Assembly (NCBI RefSeq): GCF_001434055.1
Contig: NZ_AZCZ01000012.1
Span: forward strand, 1-64,000
DNA length: 64,000 nt
Reading direction: 5' to 3'
Source of the DNA: Levilactobacillus parabrevis ATCC 53295
GTDB taxonomy: Bacteria > Bacillota > Bacilli > Lactobacillales > Lactobacillaceae
Every line of letters starts with the position of its first letter. Position 1 is the first letter of the stretch. Shown piece by piece: positions 22,257 through 64,000 of this stretch. Under the pieces are notes generated by a model, which worked only from the letters and a program-made list of their open reading frames with translations, ran no database searches and was not told where the DNA came from. A program made the position numbers and the translations under genes.

Positions 22257-22309
22257 CTTGAAATAACTCCTAACTTATTATGGACAATGGACGTTGCAAA
22301 TATATGTAT

Positions 22310-22556: not shown

Positions 22557-22821
22557 TTTGTTCAGTGTAACGTACTTGGTTAACTTCGCAGAGGGAATCA
22601 CTTTTATAAATTTGCTGTAAGTGACGAATAGTGATGATGTTGATAATCTTTTTTATTCCTTAGCGTGATTCAAGTAAAGCGAGTGTGTGAGTTAGCTGAA
22701 GCGCAAAGGGACACTTCAGTCTGACACACTAGCATTTACAGCGGCTTGGATCGCCAATTATGGTCAGTAGCCGTGGGAGCTTCAATATAATAAAAAAAGT
22801 ATTTTCCCGACGACTTGAAGC

Positions 22822-22849
22822 TTCGTGAAGTTTCACGAAACCGATTACA
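22822..22849. promoter_or_regulatory. Operator palindrome and cre-like site at the argF promoter
   Basis: TTCGTGAAGTTTCACGAA (22822-22839) is an 18-bp palindrome with one mismatched pair, over the expected -35 region. It runs into CGAAACCGATTACA (22836-22849), a 13-of-14 cre match directly before the TATACT -10 box. Arginine-catabolic genes are often catabolite repressed, which fits. Confidence 0.6.
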
Positions 22850-22886
22850 TATACTGTCATTGTAAATAACAAAGGAGGAATTAACA

Positions 22887-23885
22887 ATGTACAATTTGCG
22901 GAATCGGAGTTTTCTCACTTTATTGGACTACACCCCTAAGGAAATGGGTTTCCTGTTACAGCTGGCTGAAGATCTCAAGAATGCCAAGTATGCGGGCACG
23001 GAACAGCAAAAGTTAAAGGGTAAGAATATCGCTTTGATTTTTGAAAAGAACTCGACTCGGACCCGTTGTGCATTTGAAGTTGGGGCCTACGATCAAGGGG
23101 CCCACGTGACTTACCTCGGCCCTTCCGGTACACAAATGGGCAAGAAGGAATCAGCCAAGGATACGGCACGCGTGTTGGGCGGGATGTTTGACGGTATCGA
23201 ATACAGGGGCTTCTCCCAACGGACCGTGGAAACGCTGGCTGAATACTCAGGCGTCCCCGTTTGGAACGGTCTGACTGATGAAGACCATCCAACGCAAGTC
23301 TTGGCGGACTTCCTAACAGCTAAGGAAATCCTCAAGAAACCATACAACCAAATCCACTTTACATACGTGGGTGACGGCCGAAACAACGTGGCTAACGCGC
23401 TGATGATCGGTGCCGCAATCATGGGGATGACCTACCATCTGGTCTGCCCACAAGAACTGAACCCTTCACCAGAACTGTTGGCTAAGGTTGAAGCCATCGC
23501 AGAAAAGACGGGCGCAACTATCTTTATCACCGACGATGTGGACCAGGGGGTTAAGGGGTCTGACGTGCTCTACACCGACGTTTGGGTATCAATGGGTGAA
23601 CCAGATGAAGTCTGGACGGAACGGATCAAGTTACTCTCACCCTACCGGATCACCAGTGAAATGATGGCAAAAACCGGCAATCCAAACTGTATCTTTGAGC
23701 ACTGCCTACCATCCTTCCACGATACGGAAACCAAGGTAGGTAAGGAGATTGCTGAGAAGTTTGGAATTACCGAAATGGAAGTTACCGATGAAGTCTTCGA
23801 AAGCGACGCATCAGTGGTCTTCCAAGAAGCCGAAAACCGGATGCACACCATCAAAGCGGTGATGGTTGCGACCTTAGGCGAATAA
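22887..23885 (+). CDS. argF: Ornithine carbamoyltransferase, probably catabolic
   Basis: A 332-residue cytosolic enzyme interconverting citrulline plus phosphate with ornithine plus carbamoyl phosphate. The carbamoyl-phosphate motif NSTRTR (about 55), [12 protein letters not shown] (about 129), ornithine loop DVWVSMG (about 232) and HCLPSFHD (about 272) are all present. The SMG loop favours ornithine over putrescine. Carbamate kinase follows 15 nt downstream and a YfcC-type transporter beyond, so it likely works in the deiminase direction to make ATP (arcB role). No arginine deiminase gene is in the window. ATG with AAAGGAGG. Confidence 0.92.
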
Positions 23886-23900
23886 ACGGGGGACGAGCAG

Positions 23901-24827
23901 ATGGCAAAAATTGTTGTGGCCCTCGGCGGAAACGCCCTGGGAAAATCACCGGAAGAACAGTTGCAATTGGTTAAACACACCGCAACGTCACTGGTTGGCC
24001 TCGTGGCGGCTGGTCACAAGGTTGTCATCAGTCACGGGAATGGTCCGCAAGTTGGGGCCATCAACCTGGGGATGAATTACGCGGCGGAACACGGTCAGAC
24101 GGCGGCGTTCCCCTTCCCTGAGTGTGGGGCGATGAGCCAAGGCTATATTGGCTATCACCTCCAGCAGAGTTTGCAGAATGAACTCCATCAACGGGGGATT
24201 GTGAAGGATGTGGCGTCGGTCGTCACCCAAGTCGAAGTTGATGAAAGTGACGCGGCGTTCCAGCACCCTACTAAGCCGGTCGGCGCGTTCTACAGCAAGG
24301 AAGATGCCGATCGCATCGTAGCCGAAAAGGGCTACACCTTCGTTGAAGACGCGGGCCGAGGGTATCGCCAAGTGGTCCCTTCACCACAGCCCCAGTCGAT
24401 CATTGAACTCAAGAGTATTAACGACTTGATTGAAAACGACAACCTCGTGATTGCCGGCGGTGGCGGCGGGGTTCCCGTGGTCAAGACCCCAGCTGGTTTG
24501 AAGGGTGTGCCAGCGGTTATCGACAAGGACCGCTCCAGTGCTTTACTAGCGGCCAACATCGCGGCGGAACAGCTGATTATCTTAACGGCGGTCGATGCCG
24601 TGTACGTCAATTACGGAAAACCGGATGAGGATGTACTCCGCGAGTTAACAGCGGCGGATGCCAAGCGCTACATTGACGAGGGCCAATTTGCACCGGGGAG
24701 TATGTTACCTAAGATCGAAGCCTGCTTAGACTTTGTCGCTTCGGGCAACAACCGAACGGCCCTGATCACGTCACTGGACCGGCTGGACGATGCATTGGCT
24801 GGAAAGGTCGGCACACTGATTAAGTAA
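23901..24827 (+). CDS. arcC: Carbamate kinase
   Basis: A 308-residue amino-acid-kinase-fold enzyme making ATP from carbamoyl phosphate and ADP. Visible features: [10 protein letters not shown] (about 5-14), SHGNGPQVG (about 44-52), GAFYSKEDA insertion, and the [10 protein letters not shown] stretch with [11 protein letters not shown] (about 215). It lies 15 nt after argF in one operon. It could also serve allantoin-derived carbamoyl phosphate from the oxamate branch; the allantoin operon may encode its own kinase past the window edge. Confidence 0.93.
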
Positions 24828-24864
24828 GTTAGAACACCACTTATAATTTGGCAGACACATAGAG

Positions 24865-24913
24865 CGCGGTCCAAGGGATGTTGGCGTAGCACCCGTTCTT
24901 GGGACCGCGTTTT
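24865..24913 (+). terminator. Terminator after arcC
   Basis: CGCGGTCCAAG (24865-24875) pairs with CTTGGGACCGCG (24898-24909) with one bulge, followed by a short TTTT. Confidence 0.7.
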
Positions 24914-24927
24914 GGTATGACGTTTGG

Positions 24928-25144
24928 TTGGAACAAAGCTTGCTATCGCCTTACCGGGCAGCGTAAATTGGCTGGAACGCGTGGGCGGACGCCTAAAGCC
25001 ATAGAGCGGTCTTTAGGCTTGGGTTTGAACCTCTGAGAAGCGAGTTTCAAACCCACCAATCACCTAAGTGGCATGCCACTTAGGTGATTCCCACGGCTGA
25101 GCCAATTTACGCCACCCTTACGGCTTACGTTGGCTTAGATCCAA
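24928..25144. repeat. Structured intergenic repeat, copy B
   Basis: The outer stem (24928-24939 with 25133-25144) pairs 10 of 12 bases; the inner closing stem GCGTAAATTGGCT (24961-24973) pairs perfectly with 25100-25112. Hairpin 1 (24991-24998/25011-25018) is identical to copy A. Hairpin 2 is GGGTTTGAA/TTCAAACCC (25021-25029/25046-25054). Hairpin 3 is a perfect 12-bp stem (25061-25072/25075-25086). Then comes CCCACGGCTGAG. The stems differ from copy A but remain paired. Confidence 0.82.
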
Positions 25145-25204
25145 TCAGACGGTGAGTACCGGTTAATACTGTGACGTAGTGGTAGTTATACGAAGTACGT
25201 GTGT

Positions 25205-25271
25205 CTGTGGGTTGGTTAAACTAGTTTCAAATTTTTTGAAAGTGGCAGCCGCAGGCGGAAGTTACGCACAG
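25205..25271 (+). promoter_or_regulatory. Structured leader of the YfcC-type gene
   Basis: CTGTG (25205-25209) can pair with CACAG (25267-25271). Within are an inverted repeat (TTTCAAA/TTTGAAA, 25225-25241) and a 20-nt motif (25244-25263) 18/20 identical to one in the DUF2264 leader. It lies 60 nt before the start codon. Confidence 0.4.
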
Positions 25272-25329
25272 TTTTCGGAATTGTTTAAAAGCAAGGACAG
25301 AAGTCAACTAAGAGCAAAGGGGTGGAAAC

Positions 25330-26883
25330 ATGGATACACCAGCACAACAACCTAAAAAGAAGTTCAAGCTGCGAATGCCCGGCGCGTTTGTGATCTTATT
25401 CATCTTAACGATCGTTGCCGTGATGGCGACCTGGATGATTCCTGCGGGGTCCTATTCCAAGCTTGCTTACGAATCGTCCAGCTCGTCATTGGTCATCACT
25501 AAGCCTTCGGGGAAGACGGAAAAGGTGGCGGCCACTCAGGAACAACTGGATAAGCTGGGTGTCAAGATTCAGATCAAGGAATTTACCTCAGGCGGGATCA
25601 CCCAGGCCGTCTCGATTCCCAATACTTATCAACGGTTGAAACAACATCCGGCGGGCTTGGGCGCCATCACCAGTAGTATGGTGCGTGGGACCATCGAAGC
25701 CGTGGATATCATGGTCTTCATCTTCGTGTTAGGAGGACTCATCGGTGTGGTTAAAGCCAGCGGGGCGTTTGAAGCCGGCCTGCTGGCGTTGACCAAGAAG
25801 ACGAAGGGTCACGAATTTATGTTGATCTTCATGGTGGCCGTCCTCATGATCTTAGGAGGAACGCTCTGTGGGATTGAAGAGGAGGCCGTGGCCTTCTACC
25901 CGATTTTGGTGCCGATCTTCATTGCGATGGGCTACGATTCCATCGTCTGTGTGGGGGCCATCTTCCTGGCGAGTTCGGTCGGGACGTCGTTCTCCACGAT
26001 TAATCCGTTCTCCGTGGTGATTGCGTCCAACGCGGCCGGCATCAACTTTACGGAGGGAATCGTTTGGCGGATCGTCGGGCTGATTGTGGCTTCCATCTTC
26101 GTCATCTGGTACCTGCACTGGTACAGTAAGAAGGTGAAGAACACGCCGGCCTTCTCCTACACCTACGAGGACCGCACGTCGTTTAACAAGATGTGGTCGG
26201 TAGCCTCCGGCGACAGTGAAGAAGGCAGCGAGTTTACCTTCCGGAAGAAATTAATCCTGATTCTGTTTGTGGTGACGTTCCCCATCATGGTCTGGGGCGT
26301 GATGTCTCAGGGCTGGTGGTTCCCAACCATGGCGTCATCCTTCCTGGCATTTGCCATTATTATCATGTTCCTGACAGCGACTGGTAAATACGGGATCGGT
26401 GAAAAGGGTGTCGTGGATGCCTTTACCAACGGGTCTGCGAGCCTGGTCGGGGTCTCGTTGATCATTGGACTTGCCCGGGGGATTAACCTGGTCATGAACG
26501 AAGGTCTCATCTCCGACACGATTCTCCAGTATTCCTCAACACTGGTGGCGCACGTGAGTGGATCGGTCTTCATTCTGATCCTGATGCTGATCTTCTTCGT
26601 GCTCGGGTTCATCGTGCCATCCTCATCTGGTTTAGCCGTGCTGGCAATGCCAATCTTCGCACCGTTAGCCGATACGGTTGATATTCCACGGTTCGCCGTG
26701 GTTACGGCCTACCAATTCGGTCAGTATGCGATGCTCTTCCTGGCGCCAACCGGGCTGGTGATGGCAACCCTGCAGATGCTGGACATGAAGTACTCGCACT
26801 GGTTCAAGTTTGTCTGGCCAGTCGTTGTCTTCGTGCTGGTCTTCGGTGGCGCCATCCTGGTCGCAGAGGTGCTGGTCAGTTGA
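25330..26883 (+). CDS. YfcC-family amino-acid transporter, probable arginine/ornithine antiporter
   Basis: A 517-residue membrane protein with about 12 hydrophobic segments after a short Lys-rich N-terminus, in the YfcC/DcuC-like group. Landmarks are MPGAFVILFILTIVAVMATWMIPAG (a YfcC opening, residues about 16-40), GGTLCGIEEEAVAFYP and IVPSSSGLAVLAMPIF. YfcC-type proteins in lactobacilli often accompany deiminase genes as arginine/ornithine exchangers (established association); here it follows argF-arcC. It has its own leader after repeat B. ATG start with AAAGGGGTGG. Confidence 0.82.
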   Translation: MDTPAQQPKKKFKLRMPGAFVILFILTIVAVMATWMIPAGSYSKLAYESSSSSLVITKPSGKTEKVAATQEQLDKLGVKIQIKEFTSGGITQAVSIPNTYQRLKQHPAGLGAITSSMVRGTIEAVDIMVFIFVLGGLIGVVKASGAFEAGLLALTKKTKGHEFMLIFMVAVLMILGGTLCGIEEEAVAFYPILVPIFIAMGYDSIVCVGAIFLASSVGTSFSTINPFSVVIASNAAGINFTEGIVWRIVGLIVASIFVIWYLHWYSKKVKNTPAFSYTYEDRTSFNKMWSVASGDSEEGSEFTFRKKLILILFVVTFPIMVWGVMSQGWWFPTMASSFLAFAIIIMFLTATGKYGIGEKGVVDAFTNGSASLVGVSLIIGLARGINLVMNEGLISDTILQYSSTLVAHVSGSVFILILMLIFFVLGFIVPSSSGLAVLAMPIFAPLADTVDIPRFAVVTAYQFGQYAMLFLAPTGLVMATLQMLDMKYSHWFKFVWPVVVFVLVFGGAILVAEVLVS

Positions 26884-26980: not shown

Positions 26981-28792
26981 TTAGTTTTTAGATTTGTAGC
27001 CAAAATCAGGAATGTTACGCCAGCGCTCAGAGAGGTAACGCACAGCCTGTTTGGGTTCGCGGGCCCGGGTGAAGATGCCCTTCTTGTTGCCTTGCACCCG
27101 CTGAATGCCGAATTTCGTTTGAAAGTCGGCGAAGTTCCAGAGCTGTTCACCCACAAAGTTCGGGATCTCATCGAAGACTTTACTGTAGGTCCGATAGTAA
27201 TCGGTCTGATATTCCTCGGAGAATGGTTCGCCGTAAGCGCTGTGGACGCCGGCAATGGTATCGGCGCCATACTCGGTGAACATGATTGGTTTGTCGGGAT
27301 ACAGTTTTTGCCACGCCTGTAATTCTGCGCGGAGGTGAGTCTCGGCGGCTGACAGGTCGCCGGTATCGAGGTACCAACCGTAGTAGCGGTTGAGAGCCAG
27401 TACGTCGACCAGGTCGGATGATTTATCGGCGGCGGGTGACGCTTGAATCTCACCCACGTAGGTTAAGGGCCGATTCTGGGGATCTAACTGGCGCGCTAGC
27501 TTGAAGAGTGGCGCGAAGTATTCGTGGGCCCCCAGCGAGTAGTTGGCGGCTTCATTGGCGATTGACCACATGACGACACAGGCGTGATTCTTATCGCGGT
27601 CGATCATTTCGTGAATGACCTGACGGTGGGCCGGTTCGGTCTTCATTTTGGTCCAGGTGCCGTCATTGAAGTCGGGCTGAACGACGGCATTCATATTGAA
27701 ATCAAAACGGGTCATTAGCCCGACCGCGGGCGTTTCGTCGATGACCACGATGCCTTCGCGGTCGCACAGCCGCATCATTTCATCCGAGTAAGGGTAGTGC
27801 GAGGTGCGAAAGGAGTTGGCACCCATCTGCTTCATGAGGTTGATGTCGAGAACGTTGTAGGCCGGGTTGAGCCCCTTGCCGTTGACGTAGGTGTCCTCGT
27901 GCTTACCGAAGCCTTTGAAGTAGAACGGTTGATTGTTAATCAGAAATTGGCCAGCTTTGACCTCGACCGTGCGGATGCCGAACGGCTCGTCGTACTGGTC
28001 AATGATCGTACCAGCAATAGTTCCGGACACATGCGCCGTATAGAGGTAGGCGTTGCCGGGTTGCCAGAGATGGGCGTGTGGGACAGTTGCCGTGTGGGTG
28101 GTTGGGTCGACGGTCGCCACGACTTGGCCGGTGGCATCGCAGATGGTCGTTGTCAGGTCGAGCCCCTCACCGGTTGAAGTGACCGTCACCGTAGCCGTTC
28201 CGGTAGTGAAATCTACCGTAGGGACGATGGTCACGTCACTGATGAAGTGCTGGGGTGTCGTGTAAATCTTAACCGGGCGGTGGATGCCGGCGTAGTTAAA
28301 GAAATCGAAGTTCTCATCGACGTGACGGGTCACCCGGCCATCGGCGTCGGTCGTTTCGTGATAGTTGCCGACGGGCAAGGTCGTGTGGTCGAGAAGGTTG
28401 CTGACTTTGACGGTCAGACGGTTCTTGCCGGGGATGAGGTGGTTATTTAAAACGACCTCAAATGGAGTGAAGCCGCCCTTGTGATGGGTAATTTCGATAC
28501 CATTGACGAAGACCCAAGCCTCGTGGGTGACGGAACCAAAGCGTAAGACGAGCCGCTGGTCTTGAAGGGCGTGCATGATGGTGAAGTCACGTTCGTACCA
28601 GAAAAAGCCATCGTGTTGGCGAATCTTGGGGTTCACCGTCTGGTCGTTGAATGAGGCCGGGACGGCCATGAGCGTGGTGGTGGCGAGGGGCTGGGTGACT
28701 TCGACCGGGTGTTGTTCGTCTTCGACCTTGAATTTCCAGGTGCCGTCGAGGTCGAGGACGGTGCGGTCAGAATTGCTGACGGGATAGAGCAT
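26981..28792 (-). CDS. uidA: Beta-glucuronidase, GH2, second paralogue
   Basis: A 603-residue GH2 enzyme of the same layout as that at 9861-11669. The acid/base Glu is in WSIANEAA (about 411), the nucleophile in FTEYGADT (about 504), and GNKKGIFTR holds the N-x-K carboxylate-binding motif. The acid/base region reads NEAA rather than NEPD, as in many GH2 glucuronidases. It appears monocistronic; ATG 28792 follows AAAGGAG on the minus strand. Sequence divergence in the outer loops suggests different aglycone preference from the first copy. Confidence 0.92.
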   Translation of the reverse strand: MLYPVSNSDRTVLDLDGTWKFKVEDEQHPVEVTQPLATTTLMAVPASFNDQTVNPKIRQHDGFFWYERDFTIMHALQDQRLVLRFGSVTHEAWVFVNGIEITHHKGGFTPFEVVLNNHLIPGKNRLTVKVSNLLDHTTLPVGNYHETTDADGRVTRHVDENFDFFNYAGIHRPVKIYTTPQHFISDVTIVPTVDFTTGTATVTVTSTGEGLDLTTTICDATGQVVATVDPTTHTATVPHAHLWQPGNAYLYTAHVSGTIAGTIIDQYDEPFGIRTVEVKAGQFLINNQPFYFKGFGKHEDTYVNGKGLNPAYNVLDINLMKQMGANSFRTSHYPYSDEMMRLCDREGIVVIDETPAVGLMTRFDFNMNAVVQPDFNDGTWTKMKTEPAHRQVIHEMIDRDKNHACVVMWSIANEAANYSLGAHEYFAPLFKLARQLDPQNRPLTYVGEIQASPAADKSSDLVDVLALNRYYGWYLDTGDLSAAETHLRAELQAWQKLYPDKPIMFTEYGADTIAGVHSAYGEPFSEEYQTDYYRTYSKVFDEIPNFVGEQLWNFADFQTKFGIQRVQGNKKGIFTRAREPKQAVRYLSERWRNIPDFGYKSKN

Positions 28793-52008: not shown

Positions 52009-53085
52009 TCAAAGTTGTAAAAAGTTAAACAGCCGGTAGCTGAGCCGGAGGCCAAAGGTTTTGTCGGGGTCATCAAAGTTGATTTCGATTAGGTCTTGGA
52101 TTTTTTGCAACCGCTTGGTTAGGCTGTTTCGGTGCAGGTGAAGCTGATCGGCTGTCACGCTGATTTTGCAGTCGTTTTCCAGAAATTCGAAGAGCGTTTT
52201 AAACAATTCGCCGTGATGTTGTCGGTCGTATTTTTTTAGGAATAGGAGCTGTGAGCACATGGTATTCTTTAGCAGGGAGGCGTTGTCCACTTGAGAAAGA
52301 ATCACGTAGATATTGTATTTCTGTGTGGCGTTGACCACCGTCAGCGTCCCCAGCCGTTGCGCAATTTGGGCGGCTTGTTCACAAATATTTCGGAATTCGG
52401 CCGTCTTGCTGACATCACCGTAAGCTTCTGAGATAAAGAAGTAGTGGTGAAAGAAAGTCCCTAACTGTTTTAATTGCGGTTGTAGCTGGGACAGGTCATC
52501 CGCGTTCAGTAAAAAAGTTAGGCGTTGGTGATCCTCGGCCAACGGCATCGGTGCGATAAGATCGCGAAGCTGCTGAATAAAGGCCGTTTGGTTAGTAGCT
52601 CCCGCTTCAGGTGTGGCGGTCACACAGACCATCTTGTCCCCAAGTAGTGGTTGCAGGAGAGTCGTATCCGTTTGTGCTGGTTGAGTCAGCAACTGGCTAA
52701 AGAGACTGTTGACCTCGCTCTGGTTGGGATTTAGTGCGTATCGGTCGATGAAACTGTTAATGGCTCGGATGGCAAGTTGGACTTTATCGTGGACGACTGG
52801 GTGACGCTTGGTGTGTGACGTGAAGAGGTACCACGTGTTCAATGCCAGGGGATTAATGATGTTACGAATGAATTCCAGCTGGCCGTGGCGATACAGGGAG
52901 ACGTTAGCGGCAGGAGTCAGCCAATCTGAGGGAATCTGGATGAGTGTGGTGTGACTGTTGCTGATGATGCGACCAGATTGATCGGTCAAGATAAGCGGTT
53001 GGTCGAGATAGGCTGCAACTAGATCCGTTAGCTCGTCGAGGGTTGAACATTGAATTGATTTTAGAAGAAAATCCTCCGTATTCAT
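52009..53085 (-). CDS. PucR/CdaR-type transcriptional regulator
   Basis: A 358-residue protein with a C-terminal helix-turn-helix of the PucR/CdaR type (ISVTADQLHLHRNSLTKRLQKIQDLI, about 310-335) and a long N-terminal sensory region without a clear domain. ATG 53085 with AAAGGA upstream on the minus strand is preferred to a longer frame. PucR-like proteins activate purine and allantoin catabolism in Bacillus; the allantoin operon about 3.3 kb away makes that role attractive, though unproven. GTGCAATATGCAC (53104-53116), a 13-bp palindrome just before the start, may be its operator. Confidence 0.82.
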   Translation of the reverse strand: MNTEDFLLKSIQCSTLDELTDLVAAYLDQPLILTDQSGRIISNSHTTLIQIPSDWLTPAANVSLYRHGQLEFIRNIINPLALNTWYLFTSHTKRHPVVHDKVQLAIRAINSFIDRYALNPNQSEVNSLFSQLLTQPAQTDTTLLQPLLGDKMVCVTATPEAGATNQTAFIQQLRDLIAPMPLAEDHQRLTFLLNADDLSQLQPQLKQLGTFFHHYFFISEAYGDVSKTAEFRNICEQAAQIAQRLGTLTVVNATQKYNIYVILSQVDNASLLKNTMCSQLLFLKKYDRQHHGELFKTLFEFLENDCKISVTADQLHLHRNSLTKRLQKIQDLIEINFDDPDKTFGLRLSYRLFNFLQL

Positions 53086-53103
53086 CTGGCAGGTCCTTTC
53101 GGT

Positions 53104-53116
53104 GTGCAATATGCAC
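53104..53116. promoter_or_regulatory. Palindrome before the PucR-like gene
   Basis: GTGCAATATGCAC is symmetric apart from its centre and lies 19 nt upstream of the start codon. Autoregulation is inferred. Confidence 0.4.
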
Positions 53117-53363
53117 ATTTATTTGATTGATTAATGGGCAATATCTACTATGTAGGTCTATTTATGCTGATGATACAGCTGTTAAACGATGAAAGTATCA
53201 TAGCAGTTAGTGGGCAGATTGTCTATAGAAGATAGCTGTAAACGAATTTTTCTTGTCGATTCGGTCTGTCAACCAAGCGAGAGGTAAACCAATTTCTGAT
53301 GAGTCGTCGTTTTGATGGCAAGAGCAGTATAATTGAAAATAAACTATTCGGGAGGTCACCTAA

Positions 53364-55284: not shown

Positions 55285-56130
55285 TCAGGCTGATGCGCGG
55301 ACACCAACCGGGATGGCTGTAATAAAGGCAACGATTTGGTCGTAAATGGCCAAACTCTCGGGAGTCGCTTCGCGGTCAAAGTCGTGCTCATGATGGTCGA
55401 TGGGTAACAGGGTTGCCTCCGGCAGGTACTTCACCGCGTATTCTGAGGTGGCAAAGGGGACGTCGGGGTCGTTGGTGCTGTGGATCATAAGCGTCCGCGG
55501 CAGGCGACCTAGCTCGTCTGGCGCCAGTGAGTAGGCTGCCACGTCACGCATGCTTGGTAGAAATTGGCTGAGCCAGGTGCCAAATTGTCGGCCGGAAACG
55601 TATAGCGGATAACGATCCTTCATTTCGCCAGCGACTAAGGGCTGCCGCTGAATCAGTGCTTGTGCATTCATTGGCAGGACTTTTGGAAAGCTGTCGTAAA
55701 ATTCAGCGGGCATCCGGAATTCGGGGTAATCCAAGCCGGAGTAACCATACAGGTCAACGAAACCGTCTGCCGCGAAGCCGTCCCGTAACAGGAGGTAGGC
55801 GAGGTAGGAGCCGGCTGAACGTCCCATCAGGATGACACGGGTGGCGTGAGGTGTTTTGTCCAACATGACCCGAATGGATTCGCGTAGGACGGGTAAAATC
55901 GTGTCAATTTTAACCTCTGGTGCGAGGAGGTAGTCAAATGTAAATAGCTGAATACCCGCGGCCGTAAATTTTTTGAGGTAGGCCGTGGGAAGATCGTCCC
56001 GTTGGCCAAACTCTAGTCCGCCACCGTGAAGATAGAGAATGGTGGCCGTTGGCGTCGTGTCGGGGGCGTAACTGGTTGCCATCAGCGAAATGTCTTGGTA
56101 GGTATTTAATTGTACTTGGGTTGTCTTCAA
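55285..56130 (-). CDS. Alpha/beta hydrolase, HSL-type esterase
   Basis: A 281-residue cytosolic hydrolase. The oxyanion motif is LYLHGGG (about 32-38), the nucleophile Ser in MGRSAGSY (about 104), Asp in STNDPDVP (about 222) and His in DHHEHDFD (about 253). The HGGG motif places it in the hormone-sensitive-lipase group. GTG 56139 is only 1 nt from AGGAG, so TTG 56130 is the more workable start. It is divergent from the allantoin operon and has its own cre-like site at 56155-56168. Confidence 0.85.
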   Translation of the reverse strand: MKTTQVQLNTYQDISLMATSYAPDTTPTATILYLHGGGLEFGQRDDLPTAYLKKFTAAGIQLFTFDYLLAPEVKIDTILPVLRESIRVMLDKTPHATRVILMGRSAGSYLAYLLLRDGFAADGFVDLYGYSGLDYPEFRMPAEFYDSFPKVLPMNAQALIQRQPLVAGEMKDRYPLYVSGRQFGTWLSQFLPSMRDVAAYSLAPDELGRLPRTLMIHSTNDPDVPFATSEYAVKYLPEATLLPIDHHEHDFDREATPESLAIYDQIVAFITAIPVGVRASA

Positions 56131-56154
56131 AACCGCCACACTCCTTCTAATATT

Positions 56155-56168
56155 GTAATCGGTTTCAT
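56155..56168 (-). promoter_or_regulatory. cre-like site before the esterase gene
   Basis: On the minus strand TGAAACCGATTACA matches TGWNANCGNTNWCA fully. It overlaps a TACAAT-like -10 of the esterase gene. Confidence 0.65.
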
Positions 56169-56244
56169 TTTACCAAATTTTCAGCCGTTAAGGTGACAAA
56201 TGAAAATGTTTTTCTAGTCATTTTGGACAATGCTCCCAAGAAAG

Positions 56245-56258
56245 AAACCGCTTACAAT
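56245..56258 (+). promoter_or_regulatory. cre-like site before the allantoin operon
   Basis: AGAAACCGCTTACA matches the cre consensus at 13 of 14 positions and overlaps TACAAT, a likely -10 box. The same GAAACCG[A/C]TTACA core is found at the argF promoter. Confidence 0.6.
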
Positions 56259-56420: not shown

Positions 56421-56430
56421 GGTTTTGAAG

Positions 56431-57936
56431 GTGAAAACGAACGAGTATGAAGTAACTGAGCAGCAAATTGCAACGTTCAAAGAGCGCGGCTACAACGATG
56501 ATTTACTTCCTAAGACCGGCGATAAGCGGAACATGGGAATTGGTAACTTCTTTACCTTGTGGATGGGGTCCATCCATAACATTCCTAATTACGCGGCCGT
56601 CGGTGGCTTCCTGTTCTTAGGCTTATCACCGCTTAACGTCATGATCGCCATATTCCTGAGTGCATTCTTCGTCTCCGCATTCATGGCCATCAACGGTATC
56701 GTCGGATCCAAGTATGGAATTCCCTTTGCAATGCACCTTCGTTCGGCCTACGGCAACCTCGGTGCTAAGCTACCAGGATTCTTGCGTGGCTGTGTCGCGG
56801 CAATTGCCTGGTTTGGGTTACAGACGTATACGGGTTCTCTAGCTTTACTGATTATGATCGGTAAGATTTGGCCAGGCTTCCTCGAAATTGGGGGCTCGAC
56901 CAAAATTCTAGGAATCAGTATCCCGGGCTTAATCTCATTCACGATCTTCTGGGTCTTAAACGTCCTGGTTGGATTTGGTGGCGGGAGTATTTTAAATAAA
57001 TTTACCGCAATTTTAAGCCCACTGATTTATGTCGTATTTGGCGGGATGGCAATCTGGGCAATCTGGGGTGCTGGCGGGTTAGGACCGATTCTGTCCTACC
57101 ACATTACCGCAACCTCCCATGCCAACCCACTTCTGGTTTACTTTATTATCTTCAACTCTGTAATTGCCGTTTGGGCAGCACCCGGGACCAGTATCGCGGA
57201 CTTTACGCAAAATGCCAAGTCCACGAAGGCCCAGGCGATTGGCCAGACGTTAGGCTTATCAGTTGGTTACCTGATCTTTGCCTTCACCAGTGTGGTGATC
57301 CTGATCGGGGGCTCGATTCATTACAACATCCAGGAATGGAACGTTTTGAACATTATCGAACGGTGGGATAGCCTGCCCGCAATCTTGATTTCAATGGCCG
57401 TCTTCCTACTGACCACGATTTCAACGAATGCGACCGGGAACATTATTCCAGCCGGTTACCAATTGACAGCTTTATTCCCTAAGAAGTTGAACTACAAGAG
57501 TGGTGTAATCATTGCTAGTATCATTAGTTTCCTGATTATGCCGTGGAAGTTGATGGAAAACTCAGACAGTATCTTCATTTTCTTAAATGGAATCGGTGCT
57601 GTCCTGGGACCAGTTGCTGGGGTCATGATTGCTAACTACTTCTTCATTCACTACCGGCATGAAAATCTGGATACCCTGTATATGGATCTGAATACCGGGA
57701 ATAAAGAGATTCGTTATCATGGCATCAATAAAGAGGCCTACATCGCGACAATCTTAGCTCTCGTATTGTCACTTAGTGGTCAATTTATTCCAGCCGTCAA
57801 AGTGATTTCTGATTTATCATGGTTTGTTGGATTTATCTCTGCGTTCCTGATTTACCTAGGGTTAAAGAAAATGGTGTCGAAAAAAGAACCGGCAACAGTT
57901 AACCAAAGTTTAAACCAAGATATAAAGGAGGAATAA
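56431..57936 (+). CDS. pucI: NCS1-family permease, probable allantoin transporter
   Basis: A 501-residue transporter with about 12 membrane segments. The opening NMGIGNFFTLWMGSIHNIPNY (about 36-56) and GIPFAMHLRSAYGNLGAKLP (about 100-119) are NCS1 (Mhp1/PucI-like) features. It directly precedes allantoinase with only 2 nt between, so allantoin is the likely substrate, carried with Na+ or H+. GTG 56431 is 8 nt after AGGGG and preferred to TTG 56425. Confidence 0.88.
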   Translation: MKTNEYEVTEQQIATFKERGYNDDLLPKTGDKRNMGIGNFFTLWMGSIHNIPNYAAVGGFLFLGLSPLNVMIAIFLSAFFVSAFMAINGIVGSKYGIPFAMHLRSAYGNLGAKLPGFLRGCVAAIAWFGLQTYTGSLALLIMIGKIWPGFLEIGGSTKILGISIPGLISFTIFWVLNVLVGFGGGSILNKFTAILSPLIYVVFGGMAIWAIWGAGGLGPILSYHITATSHANPLLVYFIIFNSVIAVWAAPGTSIADFTQNAKSTKAQAIGQTLGLSVGYLIFAFTSVVILIGGSIHYNIQEWNVLNIIERWDSLPAILISMAVFLLTTISTNATGNIIPAGYQLTALFPKKLNYKSGVIIASIISFLIMPWKLMENSDSIFIFLNGIGAVLGPVAGVMIANYFFIHYRHENLDTLYMDLNTGNKEIRYHGINKEAYIATILALVLSLSGQFIPAVKVISDLSWFVGFISAFLIYLGLKKMVSKKEPATVNQSLNQDIKEE

Positions 57937-57938
57937 AC

Positions 57939-59327
57939 ATGAGTCATGAATTAGTTATTAAAAATGGATTGGTCATCCTTGAGGGTGGCGCGGTTCACAC
58001 TGATGTGGTAGTCGATAATGGCAAGATTACCGCCATTGGAGAAAATCTGGACGGTAGTAAGATTGTTGACGCCAAAGGCTTAGTTGTTAGTCCTGGGATG
58101 GTTGATGCCCATGTACATATTACCCCAATGGGTGGTGGCTACCGGGATCAATGGGAAGGCTATGTTACTGGAACGGCTTCTTGTGCTAAAGGTGGGGTTA
58201 CATCCTTTATGGAAATGCCTTTGAACCAAGTGCCCGCTACGGTTGATGGCAAGACCCTTGAAGAAAAGTACTCACACAAAGATGAATTAAAAGTGGATGT
58301 TGGCTCATTTGGTGGGTTAGTACCCTCAAACTTAAAGGGCGGCATTCAAGAATTAGATGAAGGCGGCGTCGCAGGTTACAAGTGTTTCTTAGCAACCTGT
58401 GGAGACCGGTCAATCGACGGTGACTTTGAAAACGTTGATGACTACTCCCTCTACGAAGGTATGAAGCAGATTGCCAAGACGGGGAAAGTCTTAGCTATTC
58501 ATGCCGAAGACGCAGCGATTACCGACCGCTTGGGTGAAATTGCTAAGGCGGAAGGTAAGACCACGTTGGCAGACTACGTCGACACCCGTCCAGCCTTTAC
58601 TGAAGTTATGGCCATCAAGAAGGCCATCTTTATGGCTAAGCAAACGGGCTGCCGGATTCACATCTGCCACGTTGCCTGCCAAGAAGGGGTTGACGCAGTT
58701 ATCCAAGGTCGCGCTGAAGGTGTCGACGTTACCTGTGAAACCTGTGTTCACTACCTGTACTTTGCCAAGGATGAGTTGGATGCAATTGGTGCCATCGTTA
58801 AGTGTTCACCACCAATCCGGGAACAAGCCCAACAAGATGCTTTGTGGAAGCGGGTTGAATCAGGTGCGATTAGCTTCGTAACGTCCGACCACTCACCATG
58901 TACCCCTGATTTGAAGGATACTGACAATGCATTCGATGCATGGGGCGGTATCCCAGGTGTTCAAAACGATGTTGACGTTATGTACGATGAAGCCGTTCAA
59001 AAGCGCGGTATGTCATTGACGCAATTCGCCAAGATTACTGCTTCGAACCCTGCCGATCGTTACAACTTGGATGACAAGGGTCGGATCAGTGTTGGTAAGG
59101 ATGCCGACTTCGTTCTGATCAAGCCAAACGCCCCATACACTTTGAAGGCGGAAGACTTGGAATACCGGAACCAAATCAGCCCATACATTGGCCGTGAAAT
59201 CGGTGCGCAAGTTATGCAAACCATCTTACGTGGCCAAACGATCTACAGCAAGGAAGCCGGCGTAACGTCAAGCTTCCCAGGCAAGTTCATCGAAAAGGCG
59301 TCAAAACAAGTTGCTGAAACAGTTTAG
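57939..59327 (+). CDS. allB: Allantoinase
   Basis: A 462-residue amidohydrolase that opens allantoin to allantoate. Zinc ligands are seen in DAHVHI (about 57-62), the carbamylated Lys in GYKCFLA (about 147), His in HAEDA (about 187), HICHVAC (about 243) and Asp in TSDHSP (about 316). The length matches AllB of Bacillus and E. coli. It is 2 nt after the permease, in one operon, with AAGGAGG. High-expression codons are used. Confidence 0.94.
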   Translation: MSHELVIKNGLVILEGGAVHTDVVVDNGKITAIGENLDGSKIVDAKGLVVSPGMVDAHVHITPMGGGYRDQWEGYVTGTASCAKGGVTSFMEMPLNQVPATVDGKTLEEKYSHKDELKVDVGSFGGLVPSNLKGGIQELDEGGVAGYKCFLATCGDRSIDGDFENVDDYSLYEGMKQIAKTGKVLAIHAEDAAITDRLGEIAKAEGKTTLADYVDTRPAFTEVMAIKKAIFMAKQTGCRIHICHVACQEGVDAVIQGRAEGVDVTCETCVHYLYFAKDELDAIGAIVKCSPPIREQAQQDALWKRVESGAISFVTSDHSPCTPDLKDTDNAFDAWGGIPGVQNDVDVMYDEAVQKRGMSLTQFAKITASNPADRYNLDDKGRISVGKDADFVLIKPNAPYTLKAEDLEYRNQISPYIGREIGAQVMQTILRGQTIYSKEAGVTSSFPGKFIEKASKQVAETV

Positions 59328-59351
59328 TTTAACGTCCAAATAACAATGAAG

Positions 59352-59394
59352 AACAATCCATCTTCGGTAGAGATATTGGAGGGGATTGTTTTTT
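59352..59394 (+). terminator. Terminator after allB
   Basis: AACAATCC (59352-59359) pairs with GGATTGTT (59383-59390), followed by TTTTT. It splits the allantoin genes into two transcription units. Confidence 0.75.
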
Positions 59395-59544
59395 GTGTAA
59401 AGAGTGCGGAACAAGGCGGTTAGACTCTGAGCATTAACGTCATTAGGTGGAAAATCCCCGGGTCTGGATTTTTTGCCTAATGGGGTTAAGCGCAGCTGGC
59501 TGCTTGTTGGAACACGTTTCGGCAATGTAAAAGGGAAGTGAGGA

Positions 59545-59583
59545 CCAAACCAAACCAAACCAAACCAAACCAAACCAAACCAA
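59545..59583. repeat. (CCAAA)7 pentanucleotide microsatellite
   Basis: Seven uninterrupted CCAAA units plus CCAA run from 59545 to 59583, in the region before allC. No coding frame with a ribosome binding site crosses it. Repeat number could vary by slippage. Confidence 0.9.
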
Positions 59584-59700
59584 TGTCTAATCCGCACAAT
59601 CTCCCACTAACAAAATGTGAAAATCTATGACAGTCCCAAAGAAAACGCCAATTGATTTAGCCAATACATGAAAATTAGAAAACGCGTGGTTGTCGAGGGT

Positions 59701-59988
59701 TCAAGCCGCAATCCTAATAGGAAGCGACGTCGCGTAGTTTAAACCTAAGAGGGTCGTTGAATCCCAGCGTATCAGGGCTTTAAGCGTACGTGTAGTAGCG
59801 ACAGCTTCGAGCAACATCCCCCACCGTAAAGCAGTCACGACAAATTCGCAGATCAATTCTGCCACCAAGTTAGTAAAATCTCGGCCCCAACAATTGGTGC
59901 TTTTGGCTAAATCTAGTAGGAATGCAACAATTTCACGATTGAATTTGGCCAAAGTGACTAATGATGATAGTAATGAAAGCGCATACAA
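59701..59988 (-). other. Open frame of 95 codons without start signals, possible relic
   Basis: The minus strand has an uninterrupted frame with protein-like composition (for example LLDLAKSTNCWGRDFTNLV). No ribosome binding site precedes the ATG and it overlaps the allC promoter zone. It may be a relic of a mobile element or another gene; I do not recognise it. Confidence 0.3.
59974..59987 (+). promoter_or_regulatory. cre-like site before allC
   Basis: TGAAAGCGCATACA matches the cre consensus at 13 of 14 positions and overlaps a TACAAT box (59984-59989). Confidence 0.58.
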
Positions 59989-60023
59989 TAAGCTTGTAAC
60001 ATAATATGAAGGAGGTTCAAATT

Positions 60024-61247
60024 ATGGAACTCGAAAAAGTTGTTGATGAACGACTTAAGAAATTGTCATCAATCGGTAGCGATCCAACAGGTGGGATGAC
60101 ACGGTTGCTTTACTCCGATTCATGGTTGGAAGCCCAGAAGTACGTTAAAGCACAGATGGAATCAACCGGGATGGCAACCAAGTTCGATGATGTTGGTAAC
60201 TTGTTTGGGCGGATCGAAGGTTCCGAGACGCCAGAAGAAACCATCATGACGGGTTCACATATTGACACGGTGGTTAACGGTGGGACACTCGATGGCCAAT
60301 TCGGGGTCGTTGCTTCACTGACTGCCGTCCAGTTCCTGCAAGAAAAGTACGGCGCACCAAAGCGGTCACTGGAAGTTATCTCCATGGCTGAAGAGGAAGG
60401 TAGCCGGTTCCCAACAGTATTCTGGGGCAGCAAGAACTTTGTCGGGATTGCAAACAACGATGAAGTCAAGGACGTTGCCGATGCTAACGGGAAGAAGTTC
60501 GCTGATGAAATGCACCGCCAAGGCTTTGACTTTAGTGCCAAGCAAACGCGGCGTGATGACATCAAGGCCTTCGTTGAAGAACATATTGAACAAGGGAGCA
60601 TCCTCGAAAGAGAACACGAACAAATCGGGGTTGTGAACAGCATTGCCGGCCAACGGCGTTACGACATTACCTTGAAGGGTGAAGCCAATCATGCCGGGAC
60701 GACGCCACTGAGTTACCGTCACGATGCCGTCTACGGGATGGCTAAGATCGTAAACATCGCTTTGGACAAGGCTCACGAGATTGGCGATCCACTGGTCTTA
60801 ACGTTTGGGAAAGTTGTTCCAAAGCCTAACACGGTTAACGTGGTTCCTGGGGAAGTCCTCTTCACGATGGATTGCCGTCACACCGATGCCGATTACTTAG
60901 TTAAATTCACCACTGAGATTGAAAACATGATGCGCGACGTTGCCAAGGAAATGGGCTTAGACATCAACATCGACCTCTGGATGGATGAAAAACCAGTGCC
61001 AATGAGTCAAAAGATCGTTGATACCATCGAAAGCCAAGCCAAGGCTGGAAAATACAAGTACCGCGTGATGCATAGTGGTGCCGGGCACGATTCTCAAATC
61101 ATTGCGCCAGTTTATCCAACGGCGATGATCTTCGTGCCAAGTATTAATGGGGTCAGCCATAACCCAGCCGAAAACACCAAGTTTGAAGACCTGGTCGAAG
61201 GTGTGAAGTTGATGGCAGACACACTTTACCAATTGGCTTACAAATAA
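60024..61247 (+). CDS. allC: Allantoate amidohydrolase
   Basis: A 407-residue M20-type metallo-enzyme converting allantoate to ureidoglycine, ammonia and CO2. Metal and substrate motifs: GSHIDTVVNGGTLDGQFG (about 73-90), EEEGSRFP (about 120), HIEQGSILE (about 187) and SGAGHDSQ (about 350). ATG 60024 with AAGGAGG is chosen over ATG 60006. It begins the second part of the allantoin pathway, followed 52 nt later by allE. Confidence 0.93.
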   Translation: MELEKVVDERLKKLSSIGSDPTGGMTRLLYSDSWLEAQKYVKAQMESTGMATKFDDVGNLFGRIEGSETPEETIMTGSHIDTVVNGGTLDGQFGVVASLTAVQFLQEKYGAPKRSLEVISMAEEEGSRFPTVFWGSKNFVGIANNDEVKDVADANGKKFADEMHRQGFDFSAKQTRRDDIKAFVEEHIEQGSILEREHEQIGVVNSIAGQRRYDITLKGEANHAGTTPLSYRHDAVYGMAKIVNIALDKAHEIGDPLVLTFGKVVPKPNTVNVVPGEVLFTMDCRHTDADYLVKFTTEIENMMRDVAKEMGLDINIDLWMDEKPVPMSQKIVDTIESQAKAGKYKYRVMHSGAGHDSQIIAPVYPTAMIFVPSINGVSHNPAENTKFEDLVEGVKLMADTLYQLAYK

Positions 61248-61299
61248 CTTACTTAGCTAAAACCACACAAAACTAGTCAATAAAAAGGGAGACTTGATC

Positions 61300-62085
61300 A
61301 TGAGTTACAAAAACAATCGTACCGGTTACCAAAAGCAATTATTAGGTTCACGTTCCGTCGTTAAGGCAGGCAACTTTGCGTTGATTCCAAACGATGGCTT
61401 GGTTAAAAACAATGTACCTGGTTTTGAAAATGTTGACGTTTCCATCATGGGGACCCCACGTTTAGGCGCCCACTTCGTTGATTACATTGCCAGCTTCCAA
61501 AAGGGTGGTAAGCACACCGGATTTGGTGGCGAAGGCATCGAAACGGTGGCTTACGTTGTTTCCGGTAAGTTGAAGGTTTCCGATGGTAAGGAAGAAAATA
61601 TCCTGACCGACGGTGGCTACGCTTACTTCCCAGAAAGTGTCATTATGACCATGGAAAACGCTCAAGACGAACCAACTGAAGTCTTCCTGTACAAGAAGCG
61701 TTACCAACCAATCGCTGGCCATAAGGCATACAAGATCGTTGGGAACACGCACGACCGGGCACCACAAGACTACGAAGGTATGACCGATGTTCATCTGTGG
61801 GACTTCTTACCAACCGATGACTTGGGCTTCGACATGAACATGCATATCTTGGCTTTCGAACCAGGTGCTAGCCACGCTTATATCGAAACACACTACCAAG
61901 AACACGGGGCATACTTAATCAGTGGTTCTGGGATGTACAACCTGGACAATGGTTGGTACCCAGTTGAAAAGGGTGACTACCTCTACATGGGTTCTTACTC
62001 ACCACAAGCTGCTTACGCCGTTGGCCGTGGCGAACCACTAGCTTACGTATACTCTAAGGATGCTAACCGCGATCCAGAAATCTAA
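61300..62085 (+). CDS. allE: (S)-Ureidoglycine aminohydrolase
   Basis: A 261-residue bicupin that hydrolyses ureidoglycine to (S)-ureidoglycolate and ammonia. The start [19 protein letters not shown] and the middle [25 protein letters not shown] (metal-binding cupin region with His and Glu near 188-200) match AllE/YlbA. ATG 61300 with AGGGAG. Same operon as allC and allD. Confidence 0.93.
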
Positions 62086-62126
62086 CACACGACGACACAC
62101 CCACACTAGACTTGGAGGGACAGCAT

Positions 62127-63194
62127 ATGTCAGATTCAGAAATTACGCTCGTTGATCCGCAAGAGTTACAAGATTTAATGATGAACAAATTTATCGCCGC
62201 CGGGTTACCAAAGGTTCCTGCCGAAGAGACGGCACGCCACCTAACATATGCCGACGCCTGTGGGATTCACTCCCATGGGACAGTACGGGTAGCCTACTAC
62301 GCCGAACGGATCGCTAAGGGTGGGGTTAACCTCGCACCTAACATCCAGTTTGAAAAGACGGGGACTTCTACCGGGGTCGTTCACTGTGACAACGGGATGG
62401 GTCAATACGTCTGCAATGAAGCACTGACTTACGCAATCGGTATGGCCAAGGAAACTGGGACTGCCGTTGTTGGTGTGGAAAAGACCGGTCACAGTGGGAT
62501 GCTTTCCTACTACGTGAAGCGCGCTGCTGAAGAAGGGTTAGTGGCCATCGCCATGTGCCAATCTGACCCAATGGTCGTGCCTTACGGTGGGAGTGGTAAC
62601 TACTTTGGAACCAACCCAATCGCTTTCTCTGCACCACGTTCAAGCGGTGACCCTCTGGTGTTCGATATGGCCACCACGGTTCAAGCTTGGGGGAAAGTTC
62701 TGGATGCACGGTCAAAGAACCGGTCAATTCCAGATACCTGGGCGGTTGACGGTAACGGAGACCCAACCACGAATCCACACGACGTTCGTGGCTTGCTCCC
62801 AATTGCTGGACCTAAGGGTTACGGCTTGATGATGTTAGTCGACGTGGTAGCCGGTTCCTTACTCGGCTTGCCATTTGGGAAGCACGTCTCCTCAATGTAC
62901 GCCGACCTGACTGAAAAGCGGAACTTGGGGCAATTCTACATCTTGATCGATCCAAAGAAGTTCACGGATCCAGATGCCTTTGCTAAACAAGTCCAACAAA
63001 TGACTGAAGAATTACACGAAATGAAGCCAGCTAAAGGCTTCGATCAAGTTTACCTGCCAGGTGAACGGAGCCAGATTCGTCGGAAGAAAGCGATGAAAGA
63101 TGGTATCGAAGTCGCCACTGAAATTTACGATTACTTGAAGAGCGATACGGTTCACTTTGATAAGTACAATGGGCAAGGTGCCTTCGCCGAATAA
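62127..63194 (+). CDS. allD: Ureidoglycolate dehydrogenase
   Basis: A 355-residue NAD-dependent enzyme of the LDH2/MDH2 oxidoreductase family, oxidising ureidoglycolate to oxalurate. It shows the family signature CGIHSHGTVRV (about 43-53), KTGHSGMLSYYV (about 118) and GPKGYGLMMLVD (about 225). ATG 62127 with GGAGGG is preferred. With FdrA following, the pathway proceeds to oxamate plus carbamoyl phosphate rather than glyoxylate plus urea. Confidence 0.93.
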   Translation: MSDSEITLVDPQELQDLMMNKFIAAGLPKVPAEETARHLTYADACGIHSHGTVRVAYYAERIAKGGVNLAPNIQFEKTGTSTGVVHCDNGMGQYVCNEALTYAIGMAKETGTAVVGVEKTGHSGMLSYYVKRAAEEGLVAIAMCQSDPMVVPYGGSGNYFGTNPIAFSAPRSSGDPLVFDMATTVQAWGKVLDARSKNRSIPDTWAVDGNGDPTTNPHDVRGLLPIAGPKGYGLMMLVDVVAGSLLGLPFGKHVSSMYADLTEKRNLGQFYILIDPKKFTDPDAFAKQVQQMTEELHEMKPAKGFDQVYLPGERSQIRRKKAMKDGIEVATEIYDYLKSDTVHFDKYNGQGAFAE

Positions 63195-63221
63195 ACTAAA
63201 CGAAAGAGAGTTGATAACTAT

Positions 63222-64000
63222 ATGCTGCACACAGTGATTGAAAAGAATAGTTATCAGGACTCCATCGTGCTCATGCTGTTGACCAACTATCTGGAAACGC
63301 TGGATGGCGTCAACAACGTACAAGTCATGATGGGAACCCCTGCTAACAAAGATATCTTTAAGACCGGTGGCTTGGCTACCGATGAACTGGAGGCCGCAAC
63401 CCCTAACGATATGGTGGTTGTCCTCGATGTTGATAACGAAGATTTAATCGACGACGTGGTCAAGAAGGCCAAGGTTTACCTGGATGAACAATCCAACGGG
63501 AGCGACGATGAGAACAGTGGCGAGGAACGGGTGAAGACCTGGGACAAGGCCTTAGAAGTTGCCAAGGACGCGCCAGTTGCACTGATCTCCGTACCCGGGG
63601 TTTACGCCGCAGGTGAAGTTGAAAAGGCTTTGGATGCTGGCAAAAATGTTTTCTGCTTTAGTGACAACGTGACGATTGAAGACGAAGCTCGTCTGAAGCA
63701 GATGGCTCACGAAAAAGGCCTGCTGCTGATGGGCCCCGACTGTGGGACTGGGATTGCGAATGGGTTACCATTAGCCTTCGCTAACCGGGTGCGCAAGGGC
63801 AGCATCGGGATCGTTGGAGCCTCTGGAACTGGGATTCAAGAAGTGACGGCCATCATCCATAAGATGGGTGAAGGGGTCACCAACGCCATCGGGACTGGTG
63901 GTCGTGACTTGAAGGCCCAGGTTCAAGGGATTACCTTCAAGGACAGCATTGCCTTACTGGATCAAGATCCAGATGTTAAGGTGATCGTTGCCATCTCGAA
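63222..64000 (+). CDS. fdrA: FdrA/AllF, subunit of the oxamate carbamoyltransferase complex (partial)
   Basis: The reading frame starts at ATG 63222 and runs off the window at residue 259. It resembles FdrA (succinyl-CoA synthetase alpha-like): SVPGVYAAGEVEKALDAG, GLLLMGPDCGTGIANG (about 167-182) and IGIVGASGTGIQEV (about 196-209). In E. coli FdrA is AllF of the AllFGH complex that converts oxalurate and phosphate to oxamate and carbamoyl phosphate. It lies 27 nt after allD with a GAGAG ribosome binding site. Confidence 0.9.
   Translation, partial: MLHTVIEKNSYQDSIVLMLLTNYLETLDGVNNVQVMMGTPANKDIFKTGGLATDELEAATPNDMVVVLDVDNEDLIDDVVKKAKVYLDEQSNGSDDENSGEERVKTWDKALEVAKDAPVALISVPGVYAAGEVEKALDAGKNVFCFSDNVTIEDEARLKQMAHEKGLLLMGPDCGTGIANGLPLAFANRVRKGSIGIVGASGTGIQEVTAIIHKMGEGVTNAIGTGGRDLKAQVQGITFKDSIALLDQDPDVKVIVAIS

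Follow-up and report, generated by a model that had tools for sequence, protein, structure and literature searches.

Anaerobic degradation of allantoin by way of oxamate is best described in Escherichia coli, for which the reactions from allantoin to oxalurate, from oxalurate to oxamate and carbamoyl phosphate, and from carbamoyl phosphate to ATP are reported as established (PMC11326118, PMC9843812, PMC8550087). According to these reports, the oxamate route was assigned to E. coli genes only in 2022–2024, with allFGH as the oxamic transcarbamylase and allK (ybcF) as the catabolic carbamate kinase (PMC9843812, PMC11326118). The classical oxamic transcarbamylase activity was described in a Gram-positive coccus, Streptococcus allantoicus (Barker, 1943; Bojanowski, 1964; as cited in PMC11326118). 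We analyzed a 64,000-nucleotide stretch of Levilactobacillus parabrevis ATCC 53295 (RefSeq contig NZ_AZCZ01000012.1, positions 1 to 64,000; hereafter “the window”), whose right-hand end, together with the DNA beyond it, carries an allantoin gene cluster. This cluster is very probably a complete anaerobic allantoin catabolic set of the E. coli/enterococcal oxamate type. The pathway itself is known, since its genes occur in E. coli and a cluster annotated in Enterococcus gilvus has nearly the same gene order; what is new is the lactobacillus host. No description of this allantoin cluster in lactobacilli was found in the literature searched, as judged from titles and the beginnings of abstracts.

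The contig (C24) is 70,288 bases long, so that 6,288 bases extend beyond the edge of the window, and the numbering is continuous across this edge. The pathway genes and their best family scores are as follows.

56425..57936, + strand: allantoin permease (NCS1 family), NF008476 792 bits (cut-off 620); opens likely unit 1
57939..59327, + strand: allB, allantoinase, TIGR03178 589 bits (cut-off 358)
60024..61247, + strand: allC, allantoate deiminase, TIGR03176 711 bits (cut-off 598); opens likely unit 2
61294..62085, + strand: allE, (S)-ureidoglycine aminohydrolase, TIGR03214 323 bits (cut-off 200)
62112..63194, + strand: allD, ureidoglycolate dehydrogenase, TIGR03175 574 bits (cut-off 496)
63222..64988 (window part to 64000), + strand: allF (fdrA), oxamic transcarbamylase subunit, NF004760 681 bits for the whole protein (cut-off 433)
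64992–66254 of the contig, + strand: allG, Pfam AllG (PF06545) 330 bits (cut-off 27)
66255–67109 of the contig, + strand: allH, Pfam AllH (PF11392) 83 bits (cut-off 25)
67134–68075 of the contig, + strand: allK, carbamate kinase, TIGR00746 413 bits (cut-off 358)

All reading frames of the cluster are intact, and the nine pathway proteins (the permease, AllB, AllC, AllE, AllD, AllF, AllG, AllH, and AllK) exceed the curated cut-offs. AllB, AllC, AllE, and AllD, the predicted set from allantoin to oxalurate, all score above those of NCBIfam; AllF, AllG, and AllH, which are encoded by adjacent genes, do so for NF004760, PF06545, and PF11392; and the carbamate kinase gene is linked to them, 24 bases 3′ of allH. 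The gaps between allF and allG (3 bases) and between allG and allH (0 bases) are shorter still, and all these genes lie on the + strand. An initial annotation had placed the permease, allB, allC, allE, allD, and the start of fdrA in the window, and each was recovered at its place above the NCBIfam cut-off. It had also predicted the remaining transcarbamylase subunits and perhaps a carbamate kinase to the right of position 64000, and the rest of allF, allG, allH, and allK does follow on the same contig. Downstream DNA without transcarbamylase subunits had been named there as a contrary observation; allG and allH are encoded in it. Three start codons deserve comment. The longest permease frame begins at TTG 56425, with GTG 56431 as a plausible alternative. 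The most likely allC start is 60024, which is preceded by AAGGAGG, the mechanical open reading frame start at 60006 lying before this ribosome-binding site, and allD probably starts at ATG 62127, behind GGAGG, rather than at 62112.

Every step has an orthologue in E. coli K-12 (allW/allB, allDCE, and allFGHK, the last being fdrA-ylbE-ylbF-ybcF), and the allFGHK order is the same. Over the aligned parts, identity to E. coli is 57% for the permease, 52% for AllB, 58% for AllC, 58% for AllE, 53% for AllD, 40% for AllF, 58% for AllG, 27% for AllH, and 44% for AllK. In contrast to E. coli, allCED and allFGHK are co-directional in L. parabrevis and form one likely unit; the cluster contains no allA, gcl, hyi, glxR, or glxK, and no AllA was detected genome-wide; a PucR-type regulator is encoded nearby, where E. 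coli has AllR/AllS; and genes for an R-specific alcohol dehydrogenase (R-ADH) and a D-2-hydroxyacid dehydrogenase follow the cluster. The replicon pCR1A of E. gilvus CR1 (NZ_CP030933) shares the row allC-allE-allD-fdrA-DUF1116-DUF2877-arcC followed by PucR and major facilitator superfamily (MFS) genes, as well as a separate permease-allB pair, and its AllG is 80% identical. It differs in that its cluster is on a 919-kb replicon and includes a second copy of allD as well as an alanine-glyoxylate aminotransferase gene, and in that no R-ADH or 2-hydroxyacid dehydrogenase appears among the features listed for the 29-kb stretch, whose gene table is described as incomplete. The likeness to S. allantoicus lies in oxamic transcarbamylase, known there from activity and predicted here from genes.

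The activities, yield, and regulation set out here are predicted from gene content. Allantoin would be taken up by the NCS1 permease, and its ring would be opened by AllB to give allantoate. AllC and AllE would then release two ammonia and one CO2, leaving (S)-ureidoglycolate, which AllD would oxidize to oxalurate with NAD(P)+. AllFGH would split oxalurate into oxamate and carbamoyl phosphate, and AllK would pass the phosphate of the latter to ADP to give ATP. From the known reactions, approximately 3 NH3, 2 CO2, 1 ATP, 1 NAD(P)H, and 1 oxamate are expected per allantoin. The proposal of the initial annotation, a route from allantoin through oxalurate to carbamoyl phosphate with ATP formed by carbamate kinase, is thus supported by the gene content. 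To this should be added the fate of the other product. The ureidoglycolate lyase AllA (PF04115) was detected in none of the 14 Lactobacillaceae genomes with AllG, L. parabrevis included, and the E. coli control was positive. Urease was not found in the L. parabrevis genome, and PF01019, which we take to include the oxamate hydrolase HpxW, was not found in all six full-cluster genomes; both families were detected in some control genomes. Because no AllA, urease, or PF01019 member was found, oxamate would be the end product: the only exit we recognized is the one to oxamate and carbamoyl phosphate, and no further fate of oxamate was recognized, exporters not having been searched for. With no glyoxylate branch found, oxamate should accumulate or leave the cell.

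We analyzed the distribution of these genes in 397 Lactobacillaceae genomes. AllG (PF06545) was found in 14 of them, and AllC (TIGR03176) exceeded its cut-off in six, with weaker matches below the cut-off in 20 more. Of the 14 genomes with AllG, six had AllE above its cut-off, and one more match fell short of it. The six AllC/AllE genomes are those with the cluster, four of Levilactobacillus and two of Lentilactobacillus (L. rapi and L. farraginis), so the earlier statement that complete sets are uncommon in lactobacilli holds. The gene order is common to eight distinct lactobacillus genomes or metagenome-assembled genomes (MAGs). The pathway proteins are 92–100% identical in Levilactobacillus tujiorum, L. 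hammesii, and “Lactobacillus sp.” HBUAS51381, and 98–100% identical in a MAG. The cluster of L. farraginis (G372) is disrupted in the frames of AllB and AllG, and its contig stops short of the permease. In the relatives, an MFS gene and a gene for a PucR regulator of 561–596 residues come after the cluster, and their counterparts in L. parabrevis (PucR 85% identical) are located near the end of another contig, C42. On the relatives' sequence (L025 and L039, the two cases read), the ends of C24 and C42 are approximately 130–190 bases apart, and these contigs are probably neighbours. A PucR-type gene within the window (52009–53118) was set aside as the cluster regulator, because only its C-terminal helix-turn-helix domain was matched and the relatives keep the 561–596-residue PucR past the cluster.

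The term “allantoin operon” in the initial annotation was correct for the gene set but is probably too simple for its transcription. The sites considered are listed below.

56154..56167, + strand: catabolite-responsive element (cre) site, exact match to the consensus TGWNANCGNTNWCA, between the alpha/beta hydrolase and permease genes
56190..56209, + strand: candidate operator AAGGTGACAAATGAAAATGT, resembling 59951–59970
56243..56256, + strand: cre-like site before the permease gene, 1 mismatch, kept in 7 of the 7 loci reaching that far
59345..59395, + strand: terminator-like hairpin after allB, followed by a T run when folded in all 6 Levilactobacillus loci
59389..59520, + strand: dispersed palindromic repeat in the allB–allC gap, 132 bases, considered unrelated to the function
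59951..59970, + strand: candidate operator AAAGTGACTAATGATGATAG before allC, resembling 56190–56209
59974..59987, + strand: cre-like site TGAAAGCGCATACA before allC, 1 mismatch to the consensus TGWNANCGNTNWCA

A single operon was rejected, at least for allB and allC, on account of the 678-base gap between them, the terminator-like hairpins after allB (compared in six Levilactobacillus loci, the L. rapi slice being too short), and the promoter region before allC, which is conserved as far as L. rapi and L. farraginis. There are probably two or three transcription units, of which allCED plus allFGHK, running in one direction, is likely to be one. The cre consensus was taken from a published source (PMC3146418). 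A sequence similar to the exact cre match occurs in the five Levilactobacillus slices that reach that far, and TGAAAGCGCATACA is identical in all eight loci, those of both Lentilactobacillus species among them. Directly upstream of both cre-like sites lies the motif AAAGTGAC(A/T)AATGA, which was derived from its own two places (56190–56209 and 59951–59970) and has no other match in the window at ≤ 3 mismatches. The copy before allC has 0–3 mismatches in six Levilactobacillus loci and 5–6 in L. rapi and L. farraginis. Control would probably be exerted by carbon catabolite regulation through the cre-like sites and by the PucR-type regulator encoded past the cluster.

The gap between allB and allC has features of its own. 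The repeat of approximately 130 bases within it folds as one long hairpin with varying stem sequence (folds of eight copies) and adjoins a (CCAAA)n tract. It has 32 matches in the L. parabrevis genome and is present in 33 of 35 Levilactobacillus genomes, with up to 34 in each, counts that are possibly low since at most 24 candidates were scored per genome. In L. tujiorum, L. hammesii, and HBUAS51381 (L026, L027, and L038), the gap holds a different sequence, palindromic by eye, and the gap seems to gather different repeats.

The AllFGH family extends beyond such clusters. In eight of the 14 AllG genomes, AllF and AllG are encoded in one frame of 1,017–1,073 residues (1,192 in one locus whose masked stretches were read through), and AllE was above its cut-off nowhere in these eight genomes. 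Within 19-kb stretches, these fused loci (L029–L036) contain AllH, a PucR regulator, and an alpha/beta hydrolase in eight of eight cases, carbamate kinase in seven, and Amidohydro_3, DUF1097, and the same kind of MFS gene in six each; further fused loci are L047, L052, and L131. E. coli yahC-yahJ resembles them in content, and no literature on yahF/yahG with carbamate kinase was found. An AllG tree of 36 sequences, from which L. farraginis (AllG broken), L038, L060, L065, L067, and second records of included genomes were omitted, contained 13 fused rows, each without AllE in its stretch. Twelve of these share a starred clade with one Lachnospiraceae row from a cut contig. The thirteenth (Anaerostipes, with distant AllB-, AllC-, and permease-like genes) groups among the AllE-bearing clusters. 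The six AllE-bearing lactobacillus rows form one starred clade, within the starred clade of AllE-bearing clusters plus the fused Anaerostipes row. The fused loci probably free carbamoyl phosphate from another ureide. AllFGH-type clusters were also seen on very large enterococcal replicons termed plasmids, one of 919 kb in E. gilvus (L130; split, with allantoin genes) and one of 748 kb in E. faecalis (L131; fused).

In weighing the oxamate reading, several points count against it. The identity of 27% between AllH and its E. coli namesake is low, and we therefore infer the three-subunit enzyme from family membership and gene order. The terminator scan did not include the hairpin after allB and found 10 sites, compared with 15.3 in shuffles. 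In the window, 19 cre matches with ≤ 1 mismatch were found against 7.74 expected, so that single-site statistics are weak; as such matches are common by chance, conservation rather than their count is the evidence. Furthermore, the join between C24 and C42 is deduced from relatives and not assembled.

Other explanations differ in what they make of the same genes. It is possible, if somewhat unlikely, that the cluster serves nitrogen rather than energy supply, with ammonia (from AllC, AllE, and carbamate) entering amino acids, carbamoyl phosphate entering arginine and pyrimidines, and AllK playing a minor part. Deletion of ybcF (allK) in E. coli reportedly barely altered allantoin use, and its authors suggest that carbamoyl phosphate is used for biosynthesis (PMC9843812); moreover, the Pfam name of PucR regulators links them to purine catabolism. 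However, allK lies only 24 bases from allH and is retained in eight of eight lactobacillus clusters, the cre-like sites favour catabolic control, and another carbamoyl-phosphate module is encoded in the genome, with ornithine carbamoyltransferase and carbamate kinase but no recognized arginine deiminase. The starred clade of AllE-bearing lactobacillus rows in the AllG tree, the grouping of the genes, and the prediction that AllD makes the very substrate of AllFGH make it highly improbable that AllFGH acts on another N-carbamoyl compound, with the adjoining allantoin genes merely co-members of a wider ureide cluster, even though the family is wider than allantoin (eight of the 14 Lactobacillaceae AllG genomes have no AllE above the cut-off) and E. 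coli yahEFG-yahI-yahJ forms a second AllFGH-type cluster apart from allE. A cluster that is decaying or silent in this strain might be suspected from the 132-base dispersed repeat between allB and allC, the broken AllB and AllG frames of L. farraginis, and the patchy occurrence in the family (6 of 397). We consider this very unlikely, as every frame is intact in L. parabrevis and the repeat is located between the likely terminator and the conserved promoter region.

Two genes follow allK on the contig.

68342–69100 of the contig, + strand: R-ADH, NF052562 460 bits (cut-off 400)
69167–70135 of the contig, + strand: D-2-hydroxyacid dehydrogenase, glyoxylate reductase model 320 bits (below the cut-off of 455)

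R-ADH is of the LbADH type, as it exceeds the cut-off of the equivalog NF052562 and matches PDB entry 1nxq (phmmer, 4.9e-147), and a copy lies directly 3′ of allK in eight of eight distinct lactobacillus clusters. The D-2-hydroxyacid dehydrogenase, whose nearest kin are glyoxylate reductases, is the last gene before the contig end and occurs in six of the eight clusters, every one from Levilactobacillus. R-ADH matches were found in 64 of the 397 genomes, and five of six cluster genomes searched have an extra copy elsewhere. We examined a tree of 40 rows (a part of these matches plus two named loci; 12 of its 35 inner branches are weak). In none of the 200 bootstrap trees did the eight cluster copies form one group. 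Well supported branches forced at least two changes, and the copies sorted by genus, Levilactobacillus with Levilactobacillus and Lentilactobacillus with Lentilactobacillus. Acquisition of R-ADH as one block with the cluster is therefore unsupported. The tree suggests that R-ADH came to lie beside allK through repeated recruitment or through overwriting (gene conversion) by a resident copy.

The R-ADH gene probably forms a separate unit, which may be redox-controlled. A sequence within two mismatches of the Rex operator TTGTGAAnnnnTTCACAA begins 47–48 bases before the R-ADH start codon in all six Levilactobacillus clusters, and 34 of 200 locus shuffles contain at least one such match; in L. 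rapi and L. farraginis, the closest sequence differs from the operator at three and six positions, respectively. Similar palindromes precede many non-cluster R-ADH copies, and Rex-like motifs before radh and adhE are reported in L. oligofermentans (PMC4972977). Oxamate is a known lactate dehydrogenase inhibitor. When formed from allantoin, it has been proposed to inhibit this enzyme in E. coli (PMC8550087), an effect that would be more awkward in a lactic acid bacterium. These observations can be joined in one reading that we consider quite unlikely: self-made oxamate would inhibit lactate dehydrogenase, and R-ADH, as an NADPH-dependent second copy, together with the Levilactobacillus D-2-hydroxyacid dehydrogenase, would dispose of the reducing equivalents from AllD under the Rex-like operator, R-ADH having been placed beside allK more than once or overwritten from a resident copy.

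We also considered the transcarbamylase subunits structurally. An AlphaFold2 model of AllH from L039 (98% identical to L. parabrevis AllH) had a mean pLDDT of 84.9 and gave no Foldseek match in the PDB at E 0.001 or better; a further structure comparison reached at best Z 6.0 over 73 residues, which is of little weight. A phmmer search yielded no solved relative of AllH, and the entries 3clq for AllG and 3dmy for AllF. None of 13 AllF/YahF rows has a histidine in the column that we take to hold the catalytic histidine of succinyl-CoA synthetase alpha, in a stretch that is loosely aligned, and the motif G-[RK]-[PA]-HPMID is kept in all 13. With regard to a phosphohistidine in AllF, these observations are suggestive only.

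Among neighbouring features, one gene diverges from the permease gene.

55285..56139, − strand: alpha/beta hydrolase gene (Pfam Abhydrolase_3)

Its homologue is present in seven of the eight lactobacillus clusters, namely those with a sufficiently long contig, and in all eight fused-type loci. Such homologues adjoin AllG clusters of both kinds, including those of staphylococci, Jeotgalibaca, and enterococci. Rfam gave no match at gathering thresholds within the locus. Elsewhere in the window, positions 20131–26883 encode a two-component system, ornithine carbamoyltransferase, carbamate kinase, and a DcuC/YfcC-type carrier. No member of the arginine deiminase family TIGR01078 was found in the L. 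parabrevis genome, and this second carbamoyl-phosphate module on the same contig perhaps leads from citrulline to ATP. It is adjoined by a beta-glucuronidase gene (26981–28792; NF007538 842 bits, cut-off 544).

With a complete oxamate route and no other recognized exit for ureidoglycolate, a few Levilactobacillus and Lentilactobacillus genomes offer simple hosts for tests of the three-subunit transcarbamylase. The fused AllF-AllG of lactobacilli without adjoining allantoin genes points to a further pathway yielding carbamoyl phosphate. If the reading of R-ADH as a redox outlet is true, this industrially used enzyme would gain a natural function. The cluster also raises the physiological question of how a lactic acid bacterium would cope with oxamate of its own making.

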